From Janthinobacterium saanense (GTDB lineage: Bacteria > Pseudomonadota > Gammaproteobacteria > Burkholderiales > Burkholderiaceae_D), in NCBI RefSeq assembly GCF_014200675.1, contig NZ_JACHCI010000019.1, positions 1 through 64,000 on the forward strand: a stretch of DNA of 64,000 nt. Reading direction: 5' to 3'. The notes beneath the pieces are model-generated. The model was not told the DNA's origin. It did no database searches and worked only from the letters and a program-made list of their open reading frames with translations. Position 1 is the stretch's first letter. The number at the start of each line of letters is the position of its first letter. A program made the translations under genes and the position numbers. This document shows, one piece after another, positions 1-19,353 of the stretch.

Positions 1-96
1 AATAATGAAACGCCGGTGCAGGCGATGAAGAAATGGCAGGCGGAAAAGCCGGAATTATTCGTTAAACGCGTTTATAACCAAGCGGGTCTTGACAGT
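1..96 (+). mobile_element. Right end of an insertion sequence (transposase C-terminus)
   Basis: The plus strand is open from base 1 to a TAA at 97-99. It encodes the last 32 residues of a DDE transposase/integrase, ending PELFVKRVYNQAGLDS. This looks like the C-terminus of IS481-type transposases, recalled from memory and not searched. The element end is probably the CA near 93-94, because the sequence then becomes fibre-gene sequence on the other strand. Only the end of the element is inside the window, so family and target duplication cannot be fixed. Confidence 0.6.
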
Positions 97-1188
97 TAAA
101 TTCCCATAGCCGCCTGCACACTTTCTGAATCCGCCAGAGTCGACAAGTGTCAAAATATCGTCTCCTTCCTCACCTCCTTCTATTCCAATAGCGTGATGAA
201 CAAGATCGCTTCCAGCTCCTGCACTCAATCTGTGCATATACACACGCCCAGCGCCAGTAACTGAAAAAATATCGTTACTCCATGCACTCGATCCGGTGTC
301 GTATGCTCTCAGATGCAGTTTGTAGCCCTCTTTTACCAAAGAGCCATTCGCAGCTGAGGATAGAAACCCGAAGCACCCCTCATAAGCTCGCCCCTCAATA
401 CCTCCCACACCCAAGCGCAAGACTTCTTTAGCAACTCCTGGTGCGGATTCATTTAACTTTGCCCCAGCGCTCAGGAGCGAATCGCTAATCCTTCCATTGC
501 CAACACCGATTCCTTTATTAAATAGCGCGGCAATGCTGCTATCGCCATGTCCTCGCCAGCGCGGGGCAATATATGAAGATTGCCCCGGCACGGCTGACGT
601 GTCGAATACCACAGTACCTTCCGGCCCCAGACCACTTACCGGTTCTGGTGTGGCATACGTCGCCACATTTACCCCGGCAAGATCAAATGATGCATTTGCA
701 AAATCATCAAGAAAGGCATAGACGCCATAAGTCAGATCAGGGTGCTGATAGACTATGATGCGAGCATTCCCTCGTGGCACACCTTCGAGATGCCAATCCA
801 CATACAATCCATTCCTTACACCCATCAGTAGAGTAATCGCCGACGTTTGTGCTGAAAGCCATCCATCATTTAAGGTACCGCGTATGAGAAGGTTCTCTTG
901 AGTTCCTGCATCATCCTGCGCAAAGGCTGCGAGTTTGTACCAGTTGCGGTACCCAACAGAGCTTGTAAATTGATAGCCGTACTTGGCCGTCGACCCCGAA
1001 CAAATCCTGGCGTTTGATTGAATCGGCAAGTTTGGATCCAGCCAGGCTGGCGTAATGCATCCATTCGCCCCACCCAACGGCGACATGCCCATCTTGGGTG
1101 TAGTCGACGCCACTACCGCACCGCGCCCTGCCAGCTCGTTCAGGCGCTGGATCGTGTCCTTCTGGCCATAGTAAAAAAATTCACTCAT
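55..1188 (-). CDS. Phage tail fibre protein of cassette 2, C-terminus replaced by IS sequence
   Basis: This is a 377-residue fibre-like protein and the last gene of the leftward tail operon. Its N-terminus (FFYYG, then QRLNEL) matches the start of the fibre at 2179-3150 (YFYDG, then ERLNQL), which suggests a shared attachment segment; the distal part is unrelated. The start codon overlaps the stop of the preceding adaptor gene as TAATG, with GAGGAG just upstream. The last 13 or so residues (TVKTRLVINAFNE) are encoded antisense to the transposase reading frame. The native C-terminus, where receptor binding normally lies, is therefore missing. Product identity is inferred from position and from the paralogous N-terminus. 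Confidence 0.7.
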   Translation of the reverse strand: MSEFFYYGQKDTIQRLNELAGRGAVVASTTPKMGMSPLGGANGCITPAWLDPNLPIQSNARICSGSTAKYGYQFTSSVGYRNWYKLAAFAQDDAGTQENLLIRGTLNDGWLSAQTSAITLLMGVRNGLYVDWHLEGVPRGNARIIVYQHPDLTYGVYAFLDDFANASFDLAGVNVATYATPEPVSGLGPEGTVVFDTSAVPGQSSYIAPRWRGHGDSSIAALFNKGIGVGNGRISDSLLSAGAKLNESAPGVAKEVLRLGVGGIEGRAYEGCFGFLSSAANGSLVKEGYKLHLRAYDTGSSAWSNDIFSVTGAGRVYMHRLSAGAGSDLVHHAIGIEGGEEGDDILTLVDSGGFRKCAGGYGNLTVKTRLVINAFNE

Positions 1189-2018
1189 TACAGCTCCTCT
1201 ACTTCAATGTTGGTGGCATAGGCCTGGAAAGATGGGGTGGTGATGGCGGCCAAATTAGCCAGGCGCCCGTACACCTGGTGCGCCTGCTCCAGTTCGACGT
1301 CGTCGCTGTCCGGGTACAGGCTGACGAAAAGCGGACGCGACAGACCGCTGCCGTGCACGATGCGCCACAGTTCTGCACGGTCCAGCGGCGTCATATGATC
1401 GAGCGACAGCGACAGCTTGCGATACACGGTGCCCCGCACCACTTTTTGCCCGCCGGCGTCGCTGCGGTATTGGCTGCTGGTATCGACCGGCGTAACACCA
1501 GCGCCGTACGAGGCATTCTGCTCCGGGCTCCAGTAAGCGCCAGCCACCAGGCGTGTCGCTTCGATGCAAGCCGCAGGATTGCCAGAATCCGCCAGGTCGA
1601 TCACGAGCTTCTTGATACTGCGCATGGGGACCCAGCAGCGGGCGTAGGTGCCGCCGCCATAGCTGAAGGCATTCACACCCAGCGAAATCGCGCCCCAGTC
1701 CCACATGCCCAGGCGCGCGTATTCGCACGCTGGCACGATGCCGCTGTCGAAGGCAGGTGCCGTATCGAATGGCTCGATGTAGCCGCGCACGCGCATCAGT
1801 GCCAATGGCGTCAGGTTGCAAAATGGCAGCGCCACGCCGCCGATGATTTCTGGTGTAGGCCAGACGGCGGTGATAGTCAAATCCGTGCCAACGGAGCGCA
1901 GCAGCGACGATTTCCCGTCGCGCTGCAAGTTGGCCGGCCCCAGCGCGCCAGCCTGGCTCGATGCGCTCAGCACCGCGCGGTCGGCCGCGTTGTCGTAAAT
2001 GATGCGTAGGTTGGGCAT
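1188..2018 (-). CDS. Tail fibre adaptor-like protein, copy 2
   Basis: A 276-residue structural protein that is a clear paralog of the product at 3151-4005. Both begin NNLRI(L/I)YDNAADRA and share segments such as the MRVRGY stretch and a C-terminal region around LTP(L/M)DRA. Each copy sits directly upstream of a fibre gene, so an adaptor or baseplate-decoration role that anchors the fibre is the simplest reading. AGAGGAG lies 3 bases before the ATG. A terminator-like hairpin separates it from the upstream cassette. The exact biochemical role is not recognised. Confidence 0.65.
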   Translation of the reverse strand: MPNLRIIYDNAADRAVLSASSQAGALGPANLQRDGKSSLLRSVGTDLTITAVWPTPEIIGGVALPFCNLTPLALMRVRGYIEPFDTAPAFDSGIVPACEYARLGMWDWGAISLGVNAFSYGGGTYARCWVPMRSIKKLVIDLADSGNPAACIEATRLVAGAYWSPEQNASYGAGVTPVDTSSQYRSDAGGQKVVRGTVYRKLSLSLDHMTPLDRAELWRIVHGSGLSRPLFVSLYPDSDDVELEQAHQVYGRLANLAAITTPSFQAYATNIEVEEL

Positions 2019-2130
2019 GTGCTCCTCTGAGTATTCGCTGTCAAAAGACAGGTTCGATAGTGCGGCAGCGGATGTGGGATCTCAGGCTCCGCCGCCAACA
2101 CTACCTGGCCTACCGCATATTGCTGAAATA

Positions 2131-2154
2131 AAAAAAAACCGCCGAAGCGGGTTG
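2131..2154 (-). terminator. Intrinsic terminator between the two fibre cassettes
   Basis: On the minus strand, CCGC, a TTCG tetraloop and GCGG are followed by nine T residues. The hairpin lies in the 160-base gap after the S74 fibre gene and before the copy-2 adaptor gene, so it would reduce expression of the second cassette unless transcription is antiterminated. Confidence 0.75.
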
Positions 2155-2178
2155 ATAGATGGTGCCGTCAACTCGGGA

Positions 2179-3150
2179 TCAGGCAGCCGCCTCCAGTGTC
2201 GTCAGCCGGGCCTCCTGGCCAGCCGCAATAAACATGGCCAGTTCGTCGTAGCGGAAGGCGTAACGGTCGCCGGCTTCCAGGGTCACTTCTGTGTAGGCTG
2301 CGCGCGCTTCGATGGCAGGGTAGCCTGCGCTGGCGGGCTGGGCTGGCGTCACGACATTGCCAAGCGCATCCACCACCTCCGGTAGTGCCTCGGTCGCCGG
2401 CACGGCCGGCCGCGCCTCAACGGCCGCATGCTCGATGGCCTCCCGCGCCCACTCGTCGTAGCAAATAAAACCGTAATTAAAAGGATCCAGGCCGTGCGAG
2501 CGCATGATCTCGATGGCGCGTTGCACGGTCGGCCCGATGTGCTCGCGCGCGTCCGCCCCCTTGCTATGGACCGCATCACGCCAGCGATAGACACCGATGG
2601 CGCGGGCCAAGTCCTTGGCAGCAGCTATCTCTGCAGCGTTCAGATCACGGAAATTACACTTCAGGCGGACATCGGAAGTGTTGATGGCACCGGTGCGGGC
2701 ATACACTACGTTATACGCCAGCGGCGCAGAGCCGAGAGAATATGCGTTATCCGTGCGTGGGAGCAGGTTTCTTGCCGTGCTCACCTTTTCCCCATCGATC
2801 AGGAACGCGGAAGTGAATCCGCCCCCACCTCCACTGTAAAATTTTATGGAATTGTTCACTGAGTCGAGTACCAAATCGTTCGCATTTCCACCTCGTAGGC
2901 CGCTCTCGTTACCAATGAAATACGTTTGAACATCCCCACGATAGCCCAATATTGCCGTCCCGTACGAGGGAACATTGGAACCTAACAGCGCTAATATTGC
3001 AGTTCCCGAACGTTGGTCAATCGTCAATTGCCCAGTGATTGTTCCGCCCACCAACGGCAGCGCGTTATACGGGCCGGCAGCGAACGCGCTATATAGCTGA
3101 TTCAGCCGCTCATTAACATTGGGCATGCCGTCATAAAAATAGTCTGCCAT
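2179..3150 (-). CDS. Tail fibre with C-terminal S74 intramolecular chaperone domain
   Basis: A 323-residue fibre. Residues 1-20 form the N-terminal attachment segment shared with the other fibre. A glycine-rich middle follows, and from about residue 157 comes the TSDVRLK motif that opens peptidase S74 (endosialidase-type) chaperone domains. In that family the chaperone folds the trimeric fibre and then cleaves itself off just before the conserved serine (Ser159 here). A long C-terminal part with AFRYDELAMFI fits the same domain. The ATG directly follows the adaptor stop codon (TAAATG), with GAGGGA upstream. The mature fibre would be about 158 residues. Confidence 0.8.
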   Translation of the reverse strand: MADYFYDGMPNVNERLNQLYSAFAAGPYNALPLVGGTITGQLTIDQRSGTAILALLGSNVPSYGTAILGYRGDVQTYFIGNESGLRGGNANDLVLDSVNNSIKFYSGGGGGFTSAFLIDGEKVSTARNLLPRTDNAYSLGSAPLAYNVVYARTGAINTSDVRLKCNFRDLNAAEIAAAKDLARAIGVYRWRDAVHSKGADAREHIGPTVQRAIEIMRSHGLDPFNYGFICYDEWAREAIEHAAVEARPAVPATEALPEVVDALGNVVTPAQPASAGYPAIEARAAYTEVTLEAGDRYAFRYDELAMFIAAGQEARLTTLEAAA

Positions 3151-4005
3151 TTAAATTCCCTCGATCTGTAGTGGTGCTGAATAGGTTTCAAAGTACGGCG
3201 TAGCCACCGCGTCGATATTGCTGGCCTTGCCATACAGCATGTGGTCCTGCTCCAGCAACGGGTCGGCATTTTCTGGAAATAGGCTGAACAGCATGGCCTT
3301 GCCCTTGCCGTTTTCACGCAGGATGCGCATCAAGCGCGCGCGGTCCATCGGCGTCAGGTGGGACAAGTTGATGCTCAGCTTGTCGCTGGTGCTGCCCCTG
3401 GCAGTTTTCAGGTCGCCAGCAGCCGTGCGGTAGTCTTCGCTGCTGTCCTGCAACAGCAATTGGGCGCCGTAGTCGGCGTTGTATTCGGGCGACCAGTAAT
3501 TGCCGGCCACCAGGCGCGATATCTCCAGGTAGCCTTCAGGGCTTTGCGGGGACCATACATCAATCACCAGCTTGCGCACGCGCACCGGGGCAAACCAGGC
3601 CACGCCATCGGCGCCGCCGCCACGCCCCCAGGTATTCACGCCACCGGCCTGGTAGGCATTCCAGCCCAATGGCAGTACCCCCCACGGAAAGGAGCCGTGC
3701 ACGGCGGCGCGGCAAGGGAAGACGTTGCCGGTATCGAGCACAGGATTGGTGTCGCCAGGCTGGGCATAGCCGCGCACCCGCATACGGGCGCTGCTGGTCA
3801 TATTGGTGAAGATCAGCGCCACGCAGGAAATCGACTCCTGTGTCGGCCAAGTGGCGGTGATGGTTTGCGCCGTGCCGGTCGCGCGCAGCACGGCCGACTT
3901 GCCGTCGTGCTGCAGCTTGGCTGGACCAAGCGTACCGGCCTGGCTTGATGCTGTCAGTGCGGCACGGTCGGCTGCGTTGTCGTAGAGGATGCGGAGATTA
4001 TTCAT
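3151..4005 (-). CDS. Tail fibre adaptor-like protein, copy 1
   Basis: A 284-residue protein paralogous to the product at 1188-2018, with shared blocks at the N-terminus, in the middle (ARMRVRGY, ISRLVAGNYWSPE) and at the C-terminus. The start is set at 4005 because GGAGGT lies three bases upstream and the ATG overlaps the previous stop as ATGA; an ATG seven codons earlier lacks this support. It is followed with no gap by the S74 fibre gene, so the two genes form a cassette that has been duplicated. Function is inferred only from this arrangement. Confidence 0.65.
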   Translation of the reverse strand: MNNLRILYDNAADRAALTASSQAGTLGPAKLQHDGKSAVLRATGTAQTITATWPTQESISCVALIFTNMTSSARMRVRGYAQPGDTNPVLDTGNVFPCRAAVHGSFPWGVLPLGWNAYQAGGVNTWGRGGGADGVAWFAPVRVRKLVIDVWSPQSPEGYLEISRLVAGNYWSPEYNADYGAQLLLQDSSEDYRTAAGDLKTARGSTSDKLSINLSHLTPMDRARLMRILRENGKGKAMLFSLFPENADPLLEQDHMLYGKASNIDAVATPYFETYSAPLQIEGI

Positions 4006-4490
4006 GCCACCTCCGACGCTGGCCATTGGATGGCGTCTGCCTGCTCAATACTAACCGTCGCAGCAATCTTCTCGCGCAAGTCACGGGCGATGGCAAACGC
4101 AACACTGAGGTGCTCGGCAAGTGCCGCGCCCACGGCGATCATGGCGGCAGCATCGAGTGTCACGACGGTGTTATCAGACAAGGTCCAGTCAATTGAATAC
4201 GGCTTACCTGCGGTCTGCGCCTGCAAAGCCAGTTGCGCGGCGCAGCTAATGTTTTCCTTATTGGCCTGATAAACGCCACCATTGCAGATAAAGTCGGAGC
4301 ACTCGGCCTCGGTACGCGCTTGCTTGATGCGTTCCCAGGTACTGGCCTTGACGCTAGCCAAGGTTTTCATATCAATCCAGAGATCAGCCTTGGCATCATA
4401 TATGTGATGCACACTCGGCTGAGGCAGCACAATCTTTCCTGTCCGCTCATTTGTGTGGGTACCATCGCTATTACTAATGATTGTTTCCAT
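4002..4490 (-). CDS. DUF4376-like phage tail protein
   Basis: A 162-residue protein. Its second half (AAQLALQAQTAGKPYSIDWTL, then TVVTLDAAAMIAVGAALAEH) has the pattern of DUF4376 proteins found beside tail-fibre genes in many phages, where they are thought to act as tail-fibre assembly proteins. Translation is coupled on both sides: the start forms TAATG with the stop of the upstream tail-tip gene, and its stop overlaps the next start as ATGA. AAGGA is found before the ATG. The family assignment is from memory of the motif. Confidence 0.7.
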   Translation of the reverse strand: METIISNSDGTHTNERTGKIVLPQPSVHHIYDAKADLWIDMKTLASVKASTWERIKQARTEAECSDFICNGGVYQANKENISCAAQLALQAQTAGKPYSIDWTLSDNTVVTLDAAAMIAVGAALAEHLSVAFAIARDLREKIAATVSIEQADAIQWPASEVA

Positions 4491-6334
4491 TAAAAATTCC
4501 TTGCGATCACAATTGCCTGGCATTGTTTGACATAAAGCCTACCCATATCGGCAGCTCTTAAATATTGATTGGTACCGGAAACGCCGAACTGGATCGTCCC
4601 GCCGGGACTAATGTTCTGGGTAAGCCCGAAGCACGTGGCCGCAGGCCCATCCCCTCCCTGCCGCTCCTCAACACCGCTCATCCACACCCATGCCCCGCCG
4701 TTGAGGCGGTACCAGATGCTCAACTGGTCATCGACCACCGCAGTGCAATTGATAGAAAAGAACACAGGACCGGAACGAATACGACGCGCAGCAGGCCATG
4801 CAGGATCGTTATGTTTGAAAAGTACCTCGTTGGACGAAAACACAGTTGCTGAACTGAACGTACCCGGTTCAACATATACCCCAGCAGCGGAAGACTGCAG
4901 CGAGACAGCAGGATAATCAGGCTCAAAAAATACTGTTGCTTCCGATGAAGTACCGACAGATACGCGTGCGGCACGCAAGTCGCCCGAAAATTTCCCCCAG
5001 GCAGCTTTTAACTCTCCCGAAAATGACCCGGAGGCAGCTTTCAATTCACCAGAAAATGATCCATAAGCGGCTACCAGCTCTCCTGAAAATGTGGCTTTAC
5101 CCTTTTCAATTGTGAGTCCAGGTGCATAAATATTGCCATTATCCGAAATTTGTATATAGCTGCCTGTCGAATAATTACCCAGTAACAGACCGTATGGGCC
5201 AAGGTAGTACCCGCCGCCGCCATCTGTCGGCCATGCCCAGCCGGTAATACCCCCACCCGTAATCTGGCCGCGCGCCTGAAGATTATTCACTTCCATATTA
5301 CCGGCCCTGTTCAGGCGCCAACCAGCCTGTCCGGCAACGTAATTGCTGGACCAGATGTCGCCGCCTATCTTGGCGTTCGTGACCGAGGCATTCTGGATAA
5401 AGGCATTGGCGATATACACGCCGATAGGGATGGTGACGCCCTCAATCACCGTTTCCGTCGTGCGCACGATAAAGGGCACAGCCGGAGCGATACCGCTGCC
5501 TGTCGGCGCCGCGATGGAAAATGCGTTGGCGCGAACGCCAAAATTTATTTGTCCACCTCCAGCCAAAAACTCAAACCCGCCCGCGACGCCATCCGTGTCG
5601 ACCTGAACGCCGTATTTTCTGGCGAGTGTGCCATCAAGTTGCAGGCCGCTGATCTGCTTAGTAAGTACTTGTAGCAGGTGTTCGACTTCAGCGTCGGAAG
5701 CGCCCAACGTACCGGTGCTATCGTTGTACGCGCCGGGAATGGCAGCACGCGACACATGGCGTATCCAGTAATAACGTACGGCCCCTGGTCCCACAGGATC
5801 AGTATATTCACTGCCCTCGGCGCGGCCAATCAAGGCTGCCTTGCTGAAATCATTCACCGGCGCGCACCATATTTCCGTATGCGACAGATTGTTGTAATTG
5901 GCGGGCGTGGCATTCCAGCGCAGCACGATGGTGCTCGGCGTGCCAGTAGTAGCCAGTCCAGTGGGAGCAGGCGGCGGCCGGAAGTCAAGCGCCTGCTGCT
6001 TGGCCACCGTCTGGCGGGCAAGGTAGGTCAGGCCATCGATCACCGTGGAGGCTGAAATCGTGACAATGCCGACATTCATGTCAGCGAATTTCAGTACCGC
6101 GTCACCGTTCGCAACAGTCAGCGGCACCGGCGGATCGCTGGAAAATACGATGTTGCCCACAGCGCCCAGCATCAGCGCTGAAAACGTGATGGCTTCCGGC
6201 GTGGGCGCACCTGCCGCCGACACTTCAAACATCGTGGCACTGGCCGTCAGCAGCAGCGCACGGTCGATGGGTGCCGCATAGCGCGGCACCGTGTTCATGA
6301 TGAGCGTATCGCGCTCGCCAATCACGGCACTCAT
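4490..6334 (-). CDS. Phage tail tip / host-specificity J-like protein
   Basis: A 614-residue structural protein. Residues 125-205 resemble a fibronectin type III domain (PTGLATTGTPSTIVLRWNA). A region typical of J-like C-termini comes next (TDGVAGGFEFL, then VPFIVRTTETVI and IGVYIANAFIQNASVTNAKIG). Four perfect-length 11-residue FSGEL repeats follow, and then a beta-rich C-terminal domain. Its place just after the hub-like protein and before the fibre genes fits a tail-tip component that carries receptor contacts. The start overlaps the previous stop as ATGA. Confidence 0.7.
   Translation of the reverse strand: MSAVIGERDTLIMNTVPRYAAPIDRALLLTASATMFEVSAAGAPTPEAITFSALMLGAVGNIVFSSDPPVPLTVANGDAVLKFADMNVGIVTISASTVIDGLTYLARQTVAKQQALDFRPPPAPTGLATTGTPSTIVLRWNATPANYNNLSHTEIWCAPVNDFSKAALIGRAEGSEYTDPVGPGAVRYYWIRHVSRAAIPGAYNDSTGTLGASDAEVEHLLQVLTKQISGLQLDGTLARKYGVQVDTDGVAGGFEFLAGGGQINFGVRANAFSIAAPTGSGIAPAVPFIVRTTETVIEGVTIPIGVYIANAFIQNASVTNAKIGGDIWSSNYVAGQAGWRLNRAGNMEVNNLQARGQITGGGITGWAWPTDGGGGYYLGPYGLLLGNYSTGSYIQISDNGNIYAPGLTIEKGKATFSGELVAAYGSFSGELKAASGSFSGELKAAWGKFSGDLRAARVSVGTSSEATVFFEPDYPAVSLQSSAAGVYVEPGTFSSATVFSSNEVLFKHNDPAWPAARRIRSGPVFFSINCTAVVDDQLSIWYRLNGGAWVWMSGVEERQGGDGPAATCFGLTQNISPGGTIQFGVSGTNQYLRAADMGRLYVKQCQAIVIARNF
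4958..5089 (-). repeat. Four tandem 33-bp coding repeats (FSGEL units)
   Basis: The tail-tip gene contains four consecutive 11-codon units: FSGELVAAYGS, FSGELKAASGS, FSGELKAAWGK and FSGDLRAARVS. The DNA of neighbouring units is close to identical, so the array can expand or contract in frame. It probably forms a short spacer before the terminal domain. Confidence 0.9.
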
Positions 6335-7800: not shown

Positions 7801-10800
7801 GCGTATTCTCCTTTCACTGTATTGGCCCAGGCCGAAGCCCTGGCCGATTGATCGACGCCATCGACCACCATGCGCGCGGCATTGGCAGTCGATTCGACGG
7901 TGGCCTGGATGGTGGCGCCCGTCTGCGCCCGCTGATCGGCACGCAAGCCTTCCAGCTCTTCGCGCATGGCCTGGTTGTCCTGGCGCAGGCCGCGAATCTC
8001 GGTGACCAGGGCGTCGGAACCCAGGTTGGCCGCCGCCGAGTAGCGCCCGGCATCGAACGCCACCGGTGTGGCAGGACCGGCCAAGGCGGCAAGCGCCGAA
8101 CCGGCAGGCGGGTTACTGAACTGCACACCCAGACCGGCCGCGCCGCCCATTGCTGCCTGCAGGTTGGCGATGGCCTGGGCCACCGTCAGCACACTGTCGT
8201 TGACAGTGATCAGCCCCGATACCTGAGCTTCCAATGCATTCAGGCTGGCCTGCTGCACGTCGACCTGCGCCGCCGCCCATTTCAAGGCATCCTGATTGGC
8301 CGCCATCACGCGGGCATAATCGGCCGCGTACCTGGCGTCCGATGCATTGACCACTTGCGACGCCGTCAGGAAGGCCTGCTCGGCGGCGGACAAGCCCGAT
8401 TGCGCCGTCGTATCGCCCGCATTGGCAGCGGCCAGGGTCTTCTCGAACTGCGCACGCGCTTCAGCGTATTTCTGTTCCGGCGTCAACGTGGACTGCGCGC
8501 CCAGGACCATGCTGGCGTTCAGGCCATTCAGGGTCGTGACCCAGGATTTGGATTTTTCCAGCGCCGACCTGGCGGCCGCCGCTTCGGTCTCGTAGGCTTT
8601 GGACAGCGCGTCCTTGGCACTAGTGACCGCCTTGGCCGCCTGGACCTGGTCGAACAGGGACTTGTTGACGTCGGCAATACCCGCACGCTGGCTAGCCAGC
8701 AGCTCGGCCGAACTCTTCGTCAATTCGTTCAACTGCTGTTGCAGATCCTTGTGCTCGCTGGCGATTTCACTGGCAGTTTTGCTGACTGCAGCCAGCTCGC
8801 CCGTGGCGGCGGCCAATTGCGCCGCATAATCGGCTGCCGTCTTGAACGGTTCGGCCAGCGCCAGCAACGATGCGTACAATTCCGCCGCGCCTTCCCTGCC
8901 TGTCGCCACGCCATCGGCAGCAGACAATACAGCCGCCTTGAAGCCGTCCATGGTCGTCACGCCACCCAGCTCCAACTTGCCCATGGCATCGTGGACGGAC
9001 TTGCTGATCGGCCCCATGCGTTCGGCTTCGGTGAGGAAGTTCTGCACGAAAAAGCCGGTACCACTAGTCAGCTTGTCAACGCCGCCAGCCACTTCAATCA
9101 GGTGTTCGCTCAACTTCACCGCACCCAGGCCCGTCGTATTGAACGACTTGCCCAATACCGCCAGCACGTCCGTCACCTGCATATAGTTGTTGGCAACGCG
9201 GGCCAGCGTTTCCAGATAGCCTTCGCCCACCTTCTGATACTTTTCCAGGCCGCCCACGCCAAACTTGGCCATGTCATCGCCCAGTTTTGAGAACGCGGCT
9301 TCCAGCGCTTTCTGGATTTCGTCACCCTTCAAATCTTTCAGCGAGATCTTGCCCAGGTCGACTACGAAGGTCTTCAACCGCGCATTGAATGCATCGCCGC
9401 CCAAGCCCAGCATGCCAGCCGCCGCGCTAACGGTATCGGACAGGCCAAGTATGACCTTGGTGAACTGGTCGTTCGCCTCGCGGTCAAGACCATTCAAGCC
9501 CGTTCTGTACTTATCTTTGGAGAACCAGCCGCCGGATGTCTTGGTATCCGTATATTGGCTGGCCAATACGCCACCGGTCTCAATACCACCCAGCGTAGCC
9601 TTGTTCAATAACAGGCCGGTATCGATGGTCGACGTTTTGCCACCAAAAATGGAGCCCAACACGCCGCCGGTGATTTTCCCGATCAAACCGCCAGTCAACT
9701 TATCGATTGCCAGACCGATGACGCCACCGGCGACTGCAACAACCAGCGCAGAAGAGCCAAATGTCGCCGCACCGCCTTTGCTGTCAGGAGCCGTGGCACC
9801 GGTCACACCGGAATTACGCACCAGCAGTCCACCCAAGCCACCAATGCCGGCCACCACCTGGCGCAGCGAATTGGCCATGGAAGCGGAGTAAGCCAGGCCC
9901 AGGCCGGAATTTTTCTCCATGATTTCCAGCGAATTCGAGATCGAATTGCTCTTGGCATTCGAGTCGCCCAGCACCGTGCCGGTGCCGGTGGCAGCCTGGC
10001 GATCCTTGGCGGTGGTATCGGCGCCACCACCGCCACCGGAAACAGCGACACCGATGGCCAACAGCATGCCGGCCACCATCGCAAACGCACCGATATTGGC
10101 GGGGAACGGGGCGGCCAGGGCCGATGCCAGGGCTGACACACCATAGGCGCCGGACTTGGCCGTTTCTGCGGCAGTGACTGGTCCGACCGATGCCACCGCG
10201 CCTGCAACCTCTGTCGTTGTCGCGGCCGTTTTCGCCGTCGTCACCAAAGTGATATTCGTCAGCTTTTCAAACAGGGACTTGGCATTCATGGCGAATTCGT
10301 ATGCGCGAAATCCCCTTTCCACCTTTTCCATCAGCTCATAGCCGGTGGAATGCGCGGTGAAAAAGCCTTTTGCCGCCGTGGCCATGTCGTGGTATTGCTT
10401 GACCGTCGACATATGCCTTTTATCTTCTGCCTTCTTCTTGGCATCTGGATCATCCTTTGCATCCACCATATCCTTGGCAAAAGTAAAATCGATATCTTCC
10501 TGCGTCTTGCGGAAACCCAGCAAGGCCGTGGTCATTTTTCCGATGGTGCTGCCGACATTGCCGAATGCCCGCTCAAGCTTCTTGCCAAATAAGACGGCAA
10601 ACTCACCCGCCTCCTTCCATTCCGCTTCGCTGTACTTGCGCTTGGGCGCTGCCGGCGCGGCTTTTTCCTTGGCCTTAGCGTCTGCTGCCGCTTTACCCGC
10701 CGTCTCAAGATTGGCATCGCTCTGCTCTTCCGATGCAAAAGAGCCATACTTTGCTGCCGCACCACCTGCAGCGAGGGCGGTGGGAGCGCCGGCGGCGCGC

Positions 10801-11096
10801 AGGGCCGCGAGCCGCGTGTAAGCATTTCCCAGGCCGCTGACCAGCTTGAAGGCGTCGGCCATCGACTTCGCCTCGTTTGCATTGAATGCACCGAGCGCTT
10901 TTGCGGCAGCAGTCGCATCGCGCGCCTGCTCAGCCTGGGCGCGCAACAGCAGTGCCGACGATTCCGCCTCCGTATTGGCGGCCTTGAGGCTCTCGGCGGC
11001 AACCAGACTGGCCTCACTGAGTGCCTTCAGCACTTGTACCGCGTCGACTCCCTTGCTCAAGTCGAGGCTAAGTTTTAATTCTGTTATCTCTGGCAT
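7797..11096 (-). CDS. Tail tape measure protein
   Basis: A 1,099-residue protein, by far the longest of the cluster. It has alpha-helical, Ala-rich coiled-coil ends (for example SALLLRAQAEQARDATAAAKAL near residue 50 and a long helical region after residue 770) and a central hydrophobic Gly/Ala-rich part (AFAMVAGMLLAIGVAVSGGGGG, then GGVIGLAIDKLTGGLIGKITGG) typical of tape measure proteins. These fill the tail tube and set its length. The start was moved to 11096 because the longer frame begins inside a terminator hairpin. It follows the frameshifted chaperone gene, as in other siphovirus-like tails. Confidence 0.9.
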   Translation of the reverse strand: MPEITELKLSLDLSKGVDAVQVLKALSEASLVAAESLKAANTEAESSALLLRAQAEQARDATAAAKALGAFNANEAKSMADAFKLVSGLGNAYTRLAALRAAGAPTALAAGGAAAKYGSFASEEQSDANLETAGKAAADAKAKEKAAPAAPKRKYSEAEWKEAGEFAVLFGKKLERAFGNVGSTIGKMTTALLGFRKTQEDIDFTFAKDMVDAKDDPDAKKKAEDKRHMSTVKQYHDMATAAKGFFTAHSTGYELMEKVERGFRAYEFAMNAKSLFEKLTNITLVTTAKTAATTTEVAGAVASVGPVTAAETAKSGAYGVSALASALAAPFPANIGAFAMVAGMLLAIGVAVSGGGGGADTTAKDRQAATGTGTVLGDSNAKSNSISNSLEIMEKNSGLGLAYSASMANSLRQVVAGIGGLGGLLVRNSGVTGATAPDSKGGAATFGSSALVVAVAGGVIGLAIDKLTGGLIGKITGGVLGSIFGGKTSTIDTGLLLNKATLGGIETGGVLASQYTDTKTSGGWFSKDKYRTGLNGLDREANDQFTKVILGLSDTVSAAAGMLGLGGDAFNARLKTFVVDLGKISLKDLKGDEIQKALEAAFSKLGDDMAKFGVGGLEKYQKVGEGYLETLARVANNYMQVTDVLAVLGKSFNTTGLGAVKLSEHLIEVAGGVDKLTSGTGFFVQNFLTEAERMGPISKSVHDAMGKLELGGVTTMDGFKAAVLSAADGVATGREGAAELYASLLALAEPFKTAADYAAQLAAATGELAAVSKTASEIASEHKDLQQQLNELTKSSAELLASQRAGIADVNKSLFDQVQAAKAVTSAKDALSKAYETEAAAARSALEKSKSWVTTLNGLNASMVLGAQSTLTPEQKYAEARAQFEKTLAAANAGDTTAQSGLSAAEQAFLTASQVVNASDARYAADYARVMAANQDALKWAAAQVDVQQASLNALEAQVSGLITVNDSVLTVAQAIANLQAAMGGAAGLGVQFSNPPAGSALAALAGPATPVAFDAGRYSAAANLGSDALVTEIRGLRQDNQAMREELEGLRADQRAQTGATIQATVESTANAARMVVDGVDQSARASAWANTVKGEYA

Positions 11097-11107
11097 GGTT
11101 GGCCCAT

Positions 11108-11129
11108 AAAAAAAGCCGCGCATGGCGGC
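11108..11129 (-). terminator. Intrinsic terminator before the tape measure gene
   Basis: On the minus strand, GCCGC, a five-base loop and GCGGC are followed by seven T residues ending only 12 bases before the tape measure ATG. It lies between the chaperone frame and the tape measure gene. Confidence 0.75.
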
Positions 11130-11168
11130 CTGGTTGGAAGATGCCAGCGTGGACGCTGGCCGCGTGCG

Positions 11169-11956
11169 CTAGGCTTTGGCATGCTGGTGCGACAAAAACA
11201 GCGCGTCGAGCCGGTCCAGCAGCTGGTGCTCGAAGGGCTCGATGGCGATGCCGTGGCGCGCCTGCCAGGCGAGGATTTCGGTGCTGGCGATGGGATTGAC
11301 GGCCATGCCGTTCTGGCGCTTGCCATTGAGCTGCGCAAACCATTCCCATACATGGGCCAGTTCGAACGGCAGCGATGGCGCCGCCTCTTCGGGCGGCGCG
11401 CGGAACAAAGGATGGCGCCGGGCGGCATCGAGATGCTCGCCCTTGGCATGGCCGTCGGCCGCGCGCGCGCCGCGCTCGAACTGGTAGCCAGCGTAGCGCA
11501 GCAGGCTGGCCGTCAGAGTTTCAAAAAAATCGACTCGTTTTCCAGCGCATTGGTGACTTTTTCCTGCCAGGTCGGGTATTTTTCAAAGGCCGCTTCCAGC
11601 AGCGTGGCATCGAGTGGCACGGCAGCGCCGTTGCTGGTAAAGCCATACCAGCCCGTCACCACGGCCAGCGCCAGCCGTTTCTGGTTGCCGTCGATGGCTT
11701 GCACCAGCAATTCAGCGCCTTCGTCAGTCGAGGCATCGATGGCCGTCTTGCGGCGCGCCGACTTTTTGTAGCCTTCGGCGCGCACGGCATTGTTCGCCAC
11801 ACGGTATTGTTCGCTGTTCTTGCCGACGATGGTCAGGCCGGCAACCGCTTCGCCATCGGCGTCGAAAATGACGGGGACGTCGAAGGTGACGGGAGCGGCC
11901 ACCGCGTTGATGTTGCCGATATCGAAACCTGCCTGGATTTTTTGTGCGTTGTTCAT
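11169..11956 (-). CDS. Tail assembly chaperone, -1 frameshift product (GT-like)
   Basis: A second reading frame runs without a stop from the slippery site at 11528-11522 to a TAG at 11169-11171. A -1 slip would add 117 residues to the first 145 residues of the short chaperone, giving a 262-residue fusion. The added part includes LAHVWEWFAQLNGKRQNGM and LAWQARHGIAIEPFEHQLL, a helical pattern common in second-frame tail chaperone extensions. No ATG with a ribosome site starts this frame; the first candidate is a TTG well inside it. In lambda-like tails the fusion recruits tail tube protein to the tape measure. Confidence 0.85.
11513..11956 (-). CDS. Tail assembly chaperone, unshifted product (G-like)
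   Basis: A 147-residue protein encoded between the tail tube and tape measure genes, the standard place for the tail assembly chaperone. It has mixed alpha/beta composition (FDVPVIFDADGEAVAGLTIVG near residue 25; a helical C-terminus with LLEAAFEKYPTWQEKVTNAL). Translation stops at a TGA only three codons after the TTTTTTG heptamer, exactly as needed for a minority -1 frameshift into the longer product. The family is inferred from position, size and the frameshift. Confidence 0.75.
   Translation of the reverse strand: MNNAQKIQAGFDIGNINAVAAPVTFDVPVIFDADGEAVAGLTIVGKNSEQYRVANNAVRAEGYKKSARRKTAIDASTDEGAELLVQAIDGNQKRLALAVVTGWYGFTSNGAAVPLDATLLEAAFEKYPTWQEKVTNALENESIFLKL
11522..11528 (-). promoter_or_regulatory. 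Programmed -1 ribosomal frameshift heptamer T TTT TTG
   Basis: The zero-frame codons are ATT TTT TTG, so the heptamer has the X XXY YYZ form in the right phase. After a slip, reading continues in GAA ACT CTG and stays open for 117 codons. The zero-frame stop follows three codons later. This mirrors the G/GT arrangement of lambda-like tail chaperones. Confidence 0.85.
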
Positions 11957-11982
11957 TGGTGTGATGCTTTCTGATTGAGTGA

Positions 11983-12011
11983 AAATAAAAAGGCCGCCAC
12001 GCGGGCGGCCC
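11983..12011 (-). terminator. Intrinsic terminator after the tail tube gene
   Basis: On the minus strand, GGCCGCC, a five-base loop and GGCGGCC are followed by TTTTTATTTT. It lies in the 75-base gap between the tail tube and the chaperone genes. It could lower downstream expression relative to the tube subunit, which is needed in the highest copy number. Confidence 0.85.
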
Positions 12012-12031
12012 TGGAGCCAAGCGTTAGATGC

Positions 12032-13237
12032 TTACAGGGCGCTGTCCTGGATGGTCAAGGTGGTCGCTTCGTGCTGTGCATCGATGCCCTGGTAACGCAA
12101 CACATCAAAGGCGCAGGTGACGATCTTGTTTTTCTCGCCGTCGTCGATCTTGGCCGAAGTGATCTTGATGCGGCCCATGGCCAGCGCCAGTACGTCGGCG
12201 TTAGTCGCCGTGCCCGACGCCATGGCGTAAGCCAGCGGGATTTCCGTCTCGGCCTTGAAGTAGTCAAGATAGGTGGCGTCCTGCAGCAGCACCGTGAACT
12301 GGCCCGAGCCCAGCACCTTGCCGCGCGAGGCGGCCGTGGCGTACTTGGAGCCGATCACCGGATCGACCTTGACCTGGCCGTCCAGCGACACCGACATGCC
12401 GGTGCAAATCTGCGATGGAATGCCATTGACCGACAGCAGCGAGGTGGCGCCCGAGAATTTGCCGGCGCCAGGTGCGGCCACCGGCGTGGGGAAATACGGC
12501 ACGGCCGTGGTCGGGCCTTCCGCCTTGCCTATCAGGGTGAAGTCCACGCTGGTGATGCCGTTCGGCTGCACCGCGATATCCATCTTGCTGACCAGCTGGT
12601 CGACGAAGCTGCGGTGTACGCCAACGCCGGGGTCCTGCACTTCGACGGTGAACCAGTCGGTGGTATGGCCTTTCAACGGGGTGAAGCTGCGCTTGCCGAC
12701 AGCAGCCACGCCGACCGAATCACCGGCCGCCTTGACCACAATGGCCGAACCGTCCATGAACTGGCCATTCAGGTTGGTGGCCGTGACGGAAGTGACGAAA
12801 AAGTTCTTCGCGTTATTGACGGTGGCCGGCGCCGCCAAGCCGCTGAAACGCACCACGCTGCCGGCGCGGAAGCCGTCGGCCAGCCAGGAGCCGGCGCTGC
12901 GGGTCAGGCCGGTAGCGCCGGCGGCGATGGTGGTTTGCGCGGCAGTGACGCCGCCCGCCGTGAAGTCGCGGCGCAGCAGCGCAGCCATCAGCGGTGCGTA
13001 GGTGCCGCAAGCCGCTTCGGCCTTGATGGCGCCCGAGGTGCGGAAGTTACCCAGGCGGGTATCGCCCTGCTGCTGGCTGGCGTCGATTTCGGCGCTCGCA
13101 TATTTATCTGCTTCGGTGTCGAAGGTGGCCGTGACGCGGGGATAAATCTGGCCGCCGCCGGCAGCGGCCTTGCTGCCTTCTGCTGCCTGTTTGCTGATAA
13201 CGATCAAGCTGTCGATGCCGTTTGCTGTCGATGCCAT
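12032..13237 (-). CDS. Major tail tube protein
   Basis: A 401-residue protein at the head of the structural operon. It is beta-rich and ends TCAFDVLRYQGIDAQHEATTLTIQDSAL. It begins with a short helical lead and a PRVTATFDTEADKYASAEIDAS segment, like siphovirus tube subunits. It directly precedes the chaperone and tape measure genes. AAAGG lies nine bases before the ATG. Two terminator hairpins stand between it and the regulatory genes, and one stands after it. No sheath gene accompanies it, so the tail should be non-contractile. Confidence 0.75.
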   Translation of the reverse strand: MASTANGIDSLIVISKQAAEGSKAAAGGGQIYPRVTATFDTEADKYASAEIDASQQQGDTRLGNFRTSGAIKAEAACGTYAPLMAALLRRDFTAGGVTAAQTTIAAGATGLTRSAGSWLADGFRAGSVVRFSGLAAPATVNNAKNFFVTSVTATNLNGQFMDGSAIVVKAAGDSVGVAAVGKRSFTPLKGHTTDWFTVEVQDPGVGVHRSFVDQLVSKMDIAVQPNGITSVDFTLIGKAEGPTTAVPYFPTPVAAPGAGKFSGATSLLSVNGIPSQICTGMSVSLDGQVKVDPVIGSKYATAASRGKVLGSGQFTVLLQDATYLDYFKAETEIPLAYAMASGTATNADVLALAMGRIKITSAKIDDGEKNKIVTCAFDVLRYQGIDAQHEATTLTIQDSAL

Positions 13238-13259
13238 AGGTAGTGCCTTTCATGGGATG

Positions 13260-13285
13260 AAAAAAAAGACCGCCGGGGCGGTCTT
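13260..13285 (-). terminator. Intrinsic terminator upstream of the tail tube gene (proximal)
   Basis: On the minus strand, AAGACCGCC and GGCGGTCTT form a nine-pair stem with a two-base centre (in practice a slightly shorter stem with a small loop), followed by an eight-base T run. It precedes the tail tube start by about 25 bases, so readthrough is required for tail expression unless a promoter lies between. Confidence 0.85.
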
Positions 13286-13315
13286 GGGATGGAACTGAAA
13301 AATAGGAAGTAAAAC

Positions 13316-13378
13316 GAAAAAGCCCGCGCACGGTGAGGCGGCGGGCTGAAGTCTGGTCCAAGGGCGTAAGAACGCCCT
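13316..13378 (-). terminator. Second terminator and adjoining hairpin in the 300-base leader of the tail tube gene
   Basis: AGCCCGC and GCGGGCT at 13321-13347 enclose a 13-base loop and are followed on the minus strand by TTTTTCG. A separate hairpin, AGGGCGT and ACGCCCT with a four-base loop, lies at 13361-13378 without a T run. The rest of the 13238-13536 stretch shows no convincing gene. Confidence 0.7.
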
Positions 13379-13536
13379 ATGGGACTATTTGCTGGATCAG
13401 GTTCTCCTATCGGTGTCGCGCCGGAAGCGCGTCTATTACGAGTGGAGAAGCATGTGGTGTTGCTGTGCTGCTGCGTTACTGAGACTTCATTATGGGGCTG
13501 TTTTTTTTCCTGTCCAGGCATATTGCAAAAACTTTT

Positions 13537-14070
13537 TCAGCGTCCCAACCGGCGCATGGCACGGGCGCCGTGGGACTGGAAGATGCTTTCCAGTTCACTG
13601 ACCATATCCTTGATACGTTCCAGCTCAAAACCGCCGGAACAGTTGATGGCGGCCTCGCCGCTGCCACTGCAGGCCTTGCAGATGGCGTGCACGCCAGCGG
13701 CTTCAACACCGGTGCCGTGGCAAGTTTTACATTTGCTGTCCAGCCAATGCGCCAGCGACGCTTCGGCCACGCGGCGGTACAGGGTGTTGGCCGCCTGCGC
13801 ATCCCAGGCGGTATTGGCCTTGACCCAGCGCCGCGCGCGGCCTTTTTCGGTGACAGCTGCGGTCCAGGCGCGCAGCAGCTGCGCCAGGTTGCCCGCATTG
13901 CCCTCGAACAGACGGCTGATGCTGCCATCCGCATATTTGACGCGGCACAGCAAGGCGCCCATGTCGCCGGCCAGCGCGGCCGCCGCGAGCACGTCCAGGC
14001 TGTGGTGGTGGGCATCGCCGCGCAGATTTTGCGATGACAGCGATGCGATATAGTGTTCAGCAAACCCCAT
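13537..14070 (-). CDS. Zinc-finger protein in the position of a Q-type late antiterminator
   Basis: A 177-residue protein with two DnaJ-like CxxCxGxG motifs, CKTCHGTG (about residue 111) and CKACSGSG (about residue 132), which should bind one zinc. The rest is helical. Some lambdoid late antiterminators carry such a four-cysteine finger, and this gene lies between the control region and the terminator-studded tail operon. An antiterminator role is therefore attractive but unproven. GAGGAG lies five bases before the ATG. It could also be a phage zinc-binding protein of another function. Confidence 0.5.
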   Translation of the reverse strand: MGFAEHYIASLSSQNLRGDAHHHSLDVLAAAALAGDMGALLCRVKYADGSISRLFEGNAGNLAQLLRAWTAAVTEKGRARRWVKANTAWDAQAANTLYRRVAEASLAHWLDSKCKTCHGTGVEAAGVHAICKACSGSGEAAINCSGGFELERIKDMVSELESIFQSHGARAMRRLGR

Positions 14071-14101
14071 GATTTCTCCTCGTTGATACTTGATTCTGCT
14101 A

Positions 14102-14527
14102 CTAGCCGTTGCGTTTTTGCGCCGGTCCGAACAGCGCTTCCACCAGCGGATCGCGGCCCGCCGCGCCAGGCGCCCAGTTCGACGTATGGCGCACCTGGGG
14201 CGGCAGTTCGGCCCAACCGTCGCCTTCGTCGTCCAGCGCGCCCGGTCCGTACAGGGCCGGCCGCTGGCGCCCCGGTTCGGTGCAATGGCGCTGCGCCAGG
14301 TGGATCATGCCGCTGCCGCACATATGGCGCAGGTAGCGGCTCATGGTGCCCGCGTCCAGCGACAGCAAGCTGGCCAGCTGGGCGGCGCTGGCCTGGCCGT
14401 GTTCGGCGATGTATTGCACGATGCGTGCGATATGCAGCTGTGACTTCTTGCTGCGGCCTTTCAATTCGCGCGGTCCCTGTGGCGCGCTGCTCGTCCGCTT
14501 TACCCGGCTTATACTCGTAATCAACAT
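14102..14527 (-). CDS. Winged-helix DNA-binding protein of the tail operon
   Basis: A 141-residue protein with a helix-turn-helix of winged-helix type at about residues 35-80 (IVQYIAEHGQASAAQLASLL, then DAGTMSRYLRHM). It is the first gene of the leftward operon. The start at 14527 is set by GGGGGAGGT five bases upstream; the longer open frame has no such site. It is divergent from the S24 repressor gene and shares its operator region. By analogy with pyocin control it might activate the tail genes, but only the DNA-binding fold is visible. Confidence 0.65.
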   Translation of the reverse strand: MLITSISRVKRTSSAPQGPRELKGRSKKSQLHIARIVQYIAEHGQASAAQLASLLSLDAGTMSRYLRHMCGSGMIHLAQRHCTEPGRQRPALYGPGALDDEGDGWAELPPQVRHTSNWAPGAAGRDPLVEALFGPAQKRNG

Positions 14528-14597
14528 GCTAGACCTCCCCCTTGTGCTTGCCCGGCGTGAGACGCTGTTGTGCGAATTTGCGACAGGCAACAAGTGG

Positions 14598-14653
14598 ACT
14601 TTATCAATCGCTAATGTTAAAGTCAAGCATTTGGTAATTTATCAAACGGTAAA
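14598..14653. promoter_or_regulatory. Overlapping divergent promoters with two operator boxes
   Basis: Leftward promoter: TTGACT at 14626-14621, 17-base spacer, TAAAGT at 14603-14598. Rightward repressor promoter: TTAAAG at 14617-14622, 17-base spacer, TATCAA at 14640-14645. Each -10 is covered by a 16-base box related to TTTATCGAACGATAAA: O1 at 14638-14653 (14 of 16 matches) and O2 at 14600-14615 (12 of 16). This is the layout of a repressor that blocks both directions. Confidence 0.7.
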
Positions 14654-14666
14654 TTTAAGGTCTAAT

Positions 14667-15401
14667 ATGGAGATGAATATGTATCAATACAGACGCGATC
14701 GCCTCCTGATGCTGATCGGGGAACGCTACGACAACACGCGCAAGAAAATTTCCGACGCCAGCGGCTGGAGCGAGGCACGCATCTCGCAAATCCTCTCGCC
14801 CACTTATCGCGACGGGCGCGCCTTCAGCGAAAAGATCGCGCGCAAACTGGAAGCCGATCTGCAGCTAGCCAGCATGTACTTCGACCAGGGCGCCGCGCCC
14901 GACCAGGCAAGCCTGGCGGCGCGTGCACTGGCCGGTGGGCAGGCGGTGGTGGTGGCTGGCGGCGCAGACGAGGAAGATGAACGCTTTTACGCCATCCGCA
15001 AGGTGAAACTGCGCCTGTCGGCCGGCATCACGGGCTTTGCCATCGAACCGGAAACGCATGATGGCAGCACCATCAGCGTGCCGCGCGGCTGGGTCGAACG
15101 CAATGGCTATCACCCGGACAAACTGGTGGCCATCAAGGTCAAGGGCGAGAGCATGGAGCCGGCCCTGTACGAGGACGATGTGGTGATCATCAACACGGCC
15201 GACAGCCGGCCCGTCGATGGCGTGGTATTTGCCGTCAACTATGAAGGTGAACCGGTGGTCAAGCGGCTGGCGCGCGATATCGGCGAGTGGTGGCTGACGT
15301 CGGATAATCCCGACCAGCGCAAATACCACCGCAAAATGTGCCGTGGCAATGAATGTCTGATCGTCGGCCGGGTCGTGCGCAAGGAAAGCGAGCGGATTTG
15401 A
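14667..15401 (+). CDS. LexA/CI-like S24 repressor of the tail module
   Basis: A 244-residue repressor. The N-terminal helix-turn-helix lies at about residues 18-55 (KISDASGWSEARISQILS). The C-terminal S24 domain holds the nucleophile serine in VKGESMEP and the general-base lysine in EPVVKRLA. An Ala-Gly pair in VVVAGGADEE lies between the domains, where RecA-stimulated self-cleavage usually occurs. It should hold the tail operon silent until DNA damage. The start is taken at 14667, six bases after AAGG; in-frame ATGs at 14673 and 14679 are alternatives. A perfect operator-like box follows the gene. Confidence 0.85.
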   Translation: MEMNMYQYRRDRLLMLIGERYDNTRKKISDASGWSEARISQILSPTYRDGRAFSEKIARKLEADLQLASMYFDQGAAPDQASLAARALAGGQAVVVAGGADEEDERFYAIRKVKLRLSAGITGFAIEPETHDGSTISVPRGWVERNGYHPDKLVAIKVKGESMEPALYEDDVVIINTADSRPVDGVVFAVNYEGEPVVKRLARDIGEWWLTSDNPDQRKYHRKMCRGNECLIVGRVVRKESERI

Positions 15402-15405
15402 AGAT

Positions 15406-15448
15406 GGAGTTTATCGAACGATAAACTCCGTTTAAACATTTTTTAAAC
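15406..15448. terminator. Perfect inverted repeat with operator-like core, plus second hairpin, between convergent genes
   Basis: GGAGTTTATCG (15406-15416) and CGATAAACTCC (15419-15429) are exact inverted copies separated by AA. The core TTTATCGAACGATAAA matches the boxes in the repressor promoter. A second inverted repeat, GTTTAAA and TTTAAAC with a CATTT loop, lies at 15430-15448. The site separates the repressor (+) from prpF (-) and may act as terminator, operator or both. Confidence 0.6.
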
Positions 15449-15452
15449 TGCG

Positions 15453-19342: not shown

Positions 19343-19353
19343 AGTGATACTCA

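Follow-up and report, generated by a model that had tools for sequence, protein, structure and literature searches.

The 64,000-nucleotide window analyzed here is the start of contig C19 of the 6.1-Mb Janthinobacterium saanense genome (G000), and its left end carries a phage-tail gene cluster beside the prp genes. By its anatomy, this cluster is very probably a chromosomal F-type tailocin (a headless, flexible phage-like tail) controlled by the SOS response, and a tail-less alternative occupies the same site in other species of the genus; SOS induction and killing of other bacteria are predicted from the genes present and from better-known tailocins. A sequence-only reading of the window had proposed a tail weapon rather than a prophage, which the anatomy supports; its account of that anatomy holds, but it overlooked both the probable antitermination switch and the tail-less alternative described below.

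A complete tail module without head genes

Read leftwards from a divergent S24 repressor gene, the locus encodes a winged-helix regulator, a Cys4 protein (Q, see below), the tail tube, tail assembly chaperones G and T, a tape measure, a hub, a tip protein, a DUF4376 protein, and two sets of fibre genes that extend down to base 55. This siphovirus tail order under an S24 repressor, and the gene identities originally read from the sequence, were confirmed by Pfam and PHROG profile matches. All tail genes are on the reverse strand. The tube (12032–13237) matches PF18906 (E = 3.2e-26) and phrog_290 (E = 1.7e-34). Chaperone G (11513–11956; phrog_313, E = 4.3e-4) contains a slippery heptamer, T TTT TTG (11522–11528), through which a −1 frameshift would yield the T part (11169–11408; PF23812, E = 6.8e-16); the heptamer is present in all five loci inspected, including the diverged chaperone type. 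The tape measure (7797–11123; 1108 amino acids, of the short class; phrog_7740, E = 9.9e-52) is followed by a protein assigned as baseplate hub from its position (6331–7800; phrog_8917, a family with no named function, E = 3.4e-62), the tail tip or central fibre protein (4490–6334; PF09327, E = 1.7e-15; phrog_31, central tail fiber J, E = 1.6e-22), and the DUF4376 tail protein (4002–4523; PF14301, E = 3.5e-19; phrog_2837, tail protein, E = 8.9e-20). The first fibre set comprises a fibre-associated protein (3151–4026; phrog_8610, function unknown, E = 6.3e-35) that is 86 per cent identical to its counterpart in a resident prophage on C25, another contig of this genome, and a tail fibre with a Peptidase_S74 intramolecular chaperone (2179–3150; PF13884, E = 2.2e-9; phrog_7121, E = 6.4e-50). 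In the second set, a paralogue of the fibre-associated protein (1188–2018), which precedes a fibre gene in relatives, is followed by a fibre gene (55–1188) whose 3′ end is cut by an insertion sequence (IS). No sheath family was found among the proteins scanned.

Because no gap in 1–15401 exceeds about 0.3 kb, there is no room there for a head operon or an integrase gene (no profile search for integrase was made). We extended the comparison to 40 Janthinobacterium genomes, one per species, 37 of which are at least 90 per cent complete. Tube homologs were found in 30 of them, and we distinguish clade A (tube identity of 85 per cent or more; 24 genomes) from clade B (a tube copy at 75–78 per cent; 15 genomes), with both present in 10; the sole match in G028 is at 34 per cent. 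Named loci with a related tube (n = 17) come from Janthinobacterium (15) and Duganella (2). In 23 of the 24 clade-A genomes, no more than about 11 kb separate the tube gene from prpF, and the orientation is the same; the exception is G003, where the locus is elsewhere. The prp-adjacent site, which the sequence-only reading had proposed to compare between strains, is fixed, and the tail genes of these relatives do not belong to a prophage. In the window, prpF (15453–16643, reverse strand) marks this site; it is present in 38 of the 40 genomes, and its name, like those of acnD and prpC in the right flank, was assigned by eye.

The loci of the 23 relatives repeat the order S24, winged helix, Q, tube, chaperones, tape measure, hub, fibres, and lysis genes, with single markers falling below threshold in a few: the tip, holin, and Rz in G003, the tip in G030 (in G013, it is out of place), and both Rz and Rz1 in G016. 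When these 23 loci were searched by tblastn with prophage C25 proteins (terminase, portal, head, scaffold, and capsid), none gave a match, an outcome that favours the initial reading. In IMG/VR, we found 25 related loci, 11 of clade A and 14 looser relatives. All 11 clade-A contigs begin at the S24 or winged-helix gene, with no head match within the 8–13 kb examined, beyond which some of these contigs extend. By contrast, all nine looser relatives with about 10 kb of upstream sequence show a head-region match (in L151, only a scaffold-like marker), and the remaining five have too little upstream sequence to judge. The eleven clade-A contigs (L136–L145 and L157) carry the tailocin in a form cut at its left border. 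Because IMG/VR holds these loci as viral contigs, tailocins are being counted there as viruses.

The core genes are under purifying selection. The ratio of nonsynonymous to synonymous substitution rates (dN/dS) among tailed genomes is 0.09 for the tube (253 pairs, 23 genomes), 0.11 for Q, 0.09 for S24, and 0.07 for the holin. All rates were estimated by the Nei–Gojobori method after trimming of S24, with G002, G003, G011, G022, and G031 left out, and with G024 left out of the winged-helix rates because its match is split.

Among the 24 clade-A loci, tape-measure lengths are bimodal (1059–1114 amino acids in 11 loci, 1513–1574 in 12), which suggests two tail lengths, predicted to be about 165 and 230 nm at 1.5 Å per residue; in the remaining locus (G029) the tape measure is split into 473 and 677 amino acids. 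A second chaperone type (44–45 per cent identity) occurs in six loci, all of which have the long tape measure. Fibre genes differ between genomes in number and length, as in other tailocins with variable targeting. In G030 and G033 (L109, L110), metalloprotease-like and caspase-like genes, recognized by eye, are inserted between prpE and S24.

Probable control by an S24 repressor and a Q-type antiterminator

The S24 repressor (14667–15401, forward strand; PF00717, E = 2.5e-19) has an Ala-Gly site at residues 119–120 together with Ser162 and Lys199, which we take to serve in autocleavage as the corresponding site and dyad do in LexA and CI. The motifs SAGITGF and GESMEP are present in all 33 loci that have S24, and EPVVKR in 32 of them. 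A sequence search of the PDB returned nothing for this protein. By domain and residues, it is a LexA/CI-like repressor of the autocleaving type, and its cleavage is predicted to depend on RecA. An operator-like palindrome, TTTGATAAATTACCAAA (14630–14646), lies beside the repressor gene and is exact in the loci inspected, except for one change in G024. It adjoins a promoter-like sequence, TTGACT-17-TAAAGT (14598–14626, reverse strand), that would drive the winged-helix/Q operon and is kept in the seven tailed and four tail-less loci inspected. The winged-helix regulator (14102–14527, reverse strand) matches MarR (E = 1.2e-5, in a search run on 14102–14626); the start codons of this gene and of S24 are our choice.

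The gene upstream of the tube had been labelled a zinc-finger protein with a regulatory role. By fold, its product is instead a Q-type antiterminator: the AlphaFold2 model of this Cys4 protein (13537–14070, reverse strand; 44-row alignment) has the fold of the antiterminators lambda Q and AlpA. The first seven matches of the model in a structure search were all Q-lambda or AlpA, with AlpA third, and the sequence matches the Q-like family phrog_127 (E = 0.0024). Searching the PDB by sequence gave no Q for this Q-like family, the top matches being DnaJ zinc-finger chains (E = 0.024–0.025).

The gap between Q and tube, 302–411 bases long in the tailocin loci, has a layout that may be that of an antitermination switch. 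In the window, it holds, all on the reverse strand, a late-promoter-like site, TGGACA-16-CATAAT (13489–13516), a conserved block, CACTCGTAATAGACG ... GACACCGATAGG (13406–13444), and two intrinsic terminator hairpins, one at 13321–13347 and one directly before the tube gene at 13266–13285, whose stem is kept while the stem sequence differs among genomes. Direct counts of promoters and terminators are near chance (two promoter-like sites in 11000–15450 vs. 1.3 expected). Across the clade-A loci, two perfect terminator hairpins are present in the gap in 12 of the 24, and one in a further 11, so that 23 have at least one and only G003 has none. The first motif of the block is exact in 21 of the 24 loci, and CACCGATARG is present in all 24. 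A similar block follows Q in prophage C25. The block is a candidate Q-utilization site.

Lysis genes beyond an insertion sequence

The lysis genes that were expected to lie left of the IS were located through a relative (L065, genome G027), whose tube is 98 per cent identical and whose last fibre gene is uncut, encoding 615 amino acids. Beyond that fibre gene, L065 encodes a 142-amino-acid protein, a GH19 lysozyme (PF00182; phrog_181, endolysin), and two small genes of no named family that were assigned as Rz and Rz1 by position. The 142-amino-acid protein has three hydrophobic stretches and belongs to phrog_1024 (function not named); by its place and hydropathy, it is a putative holin. When G000 was searched with this stretch, the match was contig C28, which carries all four genes (holin-like at 903, GH19 at 1328, Rz at 1840, and Rz1 at 2163) as well as a match to the 3′ part of the uncut fibre gene; no terminase, portal, or capsid gene lies further left.

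The IS stands between the tail module on C19 and the lysis genes on C28. Bases 1–98 of the window (forward strand) are the 3′ end of a repeated IS transposase-like gene, named by eye, with copies at 97–99 per cent identity on contigs C17, C33, C2, and C31, and one at 87 per cent on C3; bases 1–99 of C28 correspond, at 97 per cent identity, to the opposite end of this IS in its C2 copy. We infer that C19 and C28 abut across the IS. The IS truncates the last fibre gene, and the tailocin copy of this strain may be impaired.

Among the 23 relatives, the GH19 gene is present at the 3′ end in 22, and in G026 the stretch stops before it, with the holin-like gene on another contig. In G003, a different small membrane protein precedes the GH19 gene. 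In G027 and G000, no prpE was found next to the tailocin, and the lysis genes are followed by a receptor-like gene instead of the nucleobase permease, with a RelBE-like pair in between in G027 (names assigned by eye). Further tip-like and GH19-like matches on contig C27 of G000 (15389–15569 and 19233–19791; L017, L089) suggest another phage-like region in this genome.

Taken together, these parts predict the following course. DNA damage would activate RecA, which would promote self-cleavage of the S24 repressor and, as the positions of operator and promoter imply, free the winged-helix/Q promoter. Q would then engage RNA polymerase at the late promoter, within the Q–tube gap, and carry it past the terminators, as its fold and the site layout lead us to expect. 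The tube, chaperones, tape measure, hub, tip, and fibres would be produced, and the holin, GH19 lysozyme, and Rz/Rz1 would lyse the cell, releasing headless flexible tails. By analogy with F-type pyocin, monocin, and rhizoviticin, the released tails would kill related bacteria.

A tail-less form at the same site

We inspected the prp site in 14 genomes (the 13 without a clade-A tube, plus G003). Nine of these (G006, G009, G018, G019, G020, G021, G024, G036, and G038) have only S24, the winged-helix gene, and a holin-like gene there; tail, Q, and lysozyme sequences gave no match. Of the 37 genomes, 23 are thus tailed and nine tail-less at prp; at other sites, G003 has the tailed form and G011 the tail-less one, and the last three (G002, G022, and G031) have neither form at the prp site. 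At E = 1e-60, no relative of S24 was found in G022 or G031, and G002 has two at 55 per cent. Three poorer genomes (G023, G028, and G037) were left unclassed.

The gene trees differ in how they sort the two states. Tail-less holins form one clade (support 100/100) apart from tailed holins, whereas the S24 and winged-helix trees intermix the two states. When other holins are added, tailed and tail-less holins together form one clade (98/99), and rooting places the tail-less clade on a long branch, either nested in the tailed clade or sister to it. In a prfC tree of the 37 genomes, tail-less G036 groups with tailed G014 (support 96), G009 with G033 and G016 (96), and G019 with G010 and G017 (93). 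A Fitch parsimony count on this tree gives eight changes of state, or nine when branches with support below 90 are collapsed. Because many prfC branches are weak, the case for repeated switching rests on these three clades and on the contrast between gene trees.

In nine chosen tail-less/tailed pairs, homology stops at the end of the winged-helix gene, and in eight it returns about 100–130 bases past the tail-less holin gene, before the permease; the G024 pair has no matching right flank. Synonymous divergence (dS) between tailed and tail-less genomes is 0.35 for S24 (0.32 and 0.37 within states) and 0.37 for the winged helix (0.38 and 0.34), as against 0.71 for the holin (0.28 and 0.45). From the trees, the breakpoints, and the dS contrast, the two forms look like an old pair of alternative alleles at one site with recombining flanks, as far as one genome per species can tell.

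The tail-less form might instead be functionless debris of tail deletions. We consider this unlikely, although not to be set aside lightly: G011, whose locus at a second site lacks a tail and has another kind of holin, shows that tail-less states arose more than once. Yet the nine tail-less prp loci share a single holin clade and, in eight of nine pairs, the same two breakpoints, and their S24 and holin genes are under purifying selection (dN/dS of 0.12 and 0.13), with the autocleavage residues kept. The tail-less form is best read as a DNA-damage self-lysis module.

A second site and other payloads

The second site is common to G011 and G003, whose flanks match there on both sides; in G003, it is occupied by the tailocin. 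In G011, it holds S24, Q, the conserved block with small changes, two terminator-like hairpins (one found by script, the other by eye), and a holin of another family (phrog_2359). A repressor of autocleaving type beside a lysis gene, without a tail, is thus found at the nine prp loci, in G011, and in G166; the holin role is a putative one in all but G011.

In Duganella (g40), relatives of S24 at 59–61 per cent identity stand, with a relative of the holin, around three payloads. In G104 (L210), a Mu-like contractile tail with sheath, tube, and baseplate J (PF04984, PF10618, and PF04865) lies between the S24 relative and the related holin, and probably represents an R-type tailocin built on this chassis. 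The G236 payload is another siphovirus tail, and G166 has none. Neither G104 nor G236 matches the C25 head markers; head genes were otherwise judged there only through the proteins scanned. The operator-like palindrome adjoins S24 in G011, G236, and G166, and with two mismatches in G104. Four further genomes (G176, G319, G258, and G331; L215–L218) have S24 relatives upstream of P2-type-like baseplate genes (W, J, and I, by eye) and are possible contractile tailocins; in these, the palindrome is found only with four mismatches and at least hundreds of bases from S24.

Origin and related prophages

Prophage C25 encodes, in order, Q (at 54201), terminase, portal, head morphogenesis, scaffold, capsid, neck, and tube (at 65628), and a prophage in G020 has the same layout with a Q–tube distance of about 12.9 kb. 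At about 55300 (L010), C25 has a tRNA-like sequence, placed after Q and ahead of its head genes. The tailocin shares with C25 homologous Q, tube (76 per cent identity), chaperones, tape measure, hub (80 per cent), fibre proteins, and GH19 lysozyme, with their order conserved; unlike the tailocin, C25 has a head block between Q and tube and no match to the tailocin holin. As the simplest path, we infer that the tailocin arose from a lambda-like prophage lineage, one that persists in Janthinobacterium, when the head block separating Q from tube was lost.

Given this clear relation to C25, the IS in the last fibre gene, and the split tape measure of G029, the locus could be viewed as a decaying, functionless prophage remnant that lost its head genes by chance. 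We regard this as very improbable, since 24 genomes retain tube, hub, and chaperones, 23 an unsplit tape measure, and all the GH19 gene wherever the stretch extends that far; selection is purifying, the site is fixed, and no head-bearing clade-A version appears in the 23 relatives or in the examined parts of the 11 IMG/VR contigs. It is scarcely credible that the locus is a satellite donating tails to the heads of a resident related prophage or to a gene-transfer agent: the tube and hub identities to C25 and the clade-B tube in 10 of 24 clade-A genomes would fit, but the other 14 lack a clade-B tube (G033 has a 28 per cent match), both related prophages inspected encode their own tails, and the locus brings a repressor and lysis genes of its own. 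A chromosomal F-type tailocin remains the reading that we favour.

Comparison with known systems

F-type pyocins of Pseudomonas aeruginosa reside at a fixed chromosomal site, and monocin of Listeria monocytogenes comes from a Gram-positive host and is TP901-1-like. The present locus differs from F-type pyocin in tail lineage and site, and in a control that includes a Q-type antiterminator with terminators. It resembles F-type pyocin, as that class and its relation to lambda are described in passages of PMC12090994, in being a headless lambda-related tail module with its own regulators and lysis genes. Pyocins of P. aeruginosa are controlled by PrtR and the activator PrtN, according to a section of PMC12796719. 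Rhizoviticin of Allorhizobium vitis, likewise a tailocin of the F type, has a LexA-family repressor together with holin-like and lytic genes, but it is a chimera of two prophage types, carries replication-type genes, and belongs to an alphaproteobacterium; the passages of PMC10811719 that describe it do not mention a tail-less form. These passages also call F-type tailocins rare, naming F-pyocin and monocin as exceptions, the latter sharing with our locus a non-contractile tail.

Our literature searches found no tailocin reported in Janthinobacterium; a genome paper on the genus mentions prophages, and the word "tailocin" is absent from its main text (PMC12618000). Full-text searches, partly with loose terms, returned no title on a tail-less tailocin allele. 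F-type tailocins are few, and here a single locus occurs in both armed and unarmed form within a genus, under purifying selection in either case, which makes the reasons for the coexistence of tailocin producers and non-producers testable, together with a possible origin of Alp-like self-lysis from tailocins or prophages.

The closest known system to the tail-less form is Alp of P. aeruginosa, which comprises the autocleaving repressor AlpR, the antiterminator AlpA, an intrinsic terminator, and the putative holin AlpB, and which its authors regard as repurposed from a prophage (in the relevant sections of PMC7969949; Alp is also treated in part of PMC12796719). The tail-less form at the prp site differs in keeping the winged helix and holin-like gene without Q, whereas that of G011, with its Q, block, two terminator-like hairpins, and holin, invites comparison with the antiterminator, terminator, and holin of Alp. 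Alp has the further genes alpC–E, and the tail-less module here is an alternative to a tailocin at one site. We tentatively propose, as a picture that may well need revision, that a single chassis (S24, palindromic operator, and lysis gene) carries interchangeable payloads in Oxalobacteraceae (an F-type tail in Janthinobacterium, a different F-type tail in G236 and a contractile Mu-like one in G104 in Duganella, or none), and that in Janthinobacterium an old allele pair at one site, common to several species, is exchanged via conserved flanks, so that tailocin makers and Alp-like non-makers coexist. If so, programmed-death modules of the Alp kind would be tailocins or prophages that have dropped their tail.

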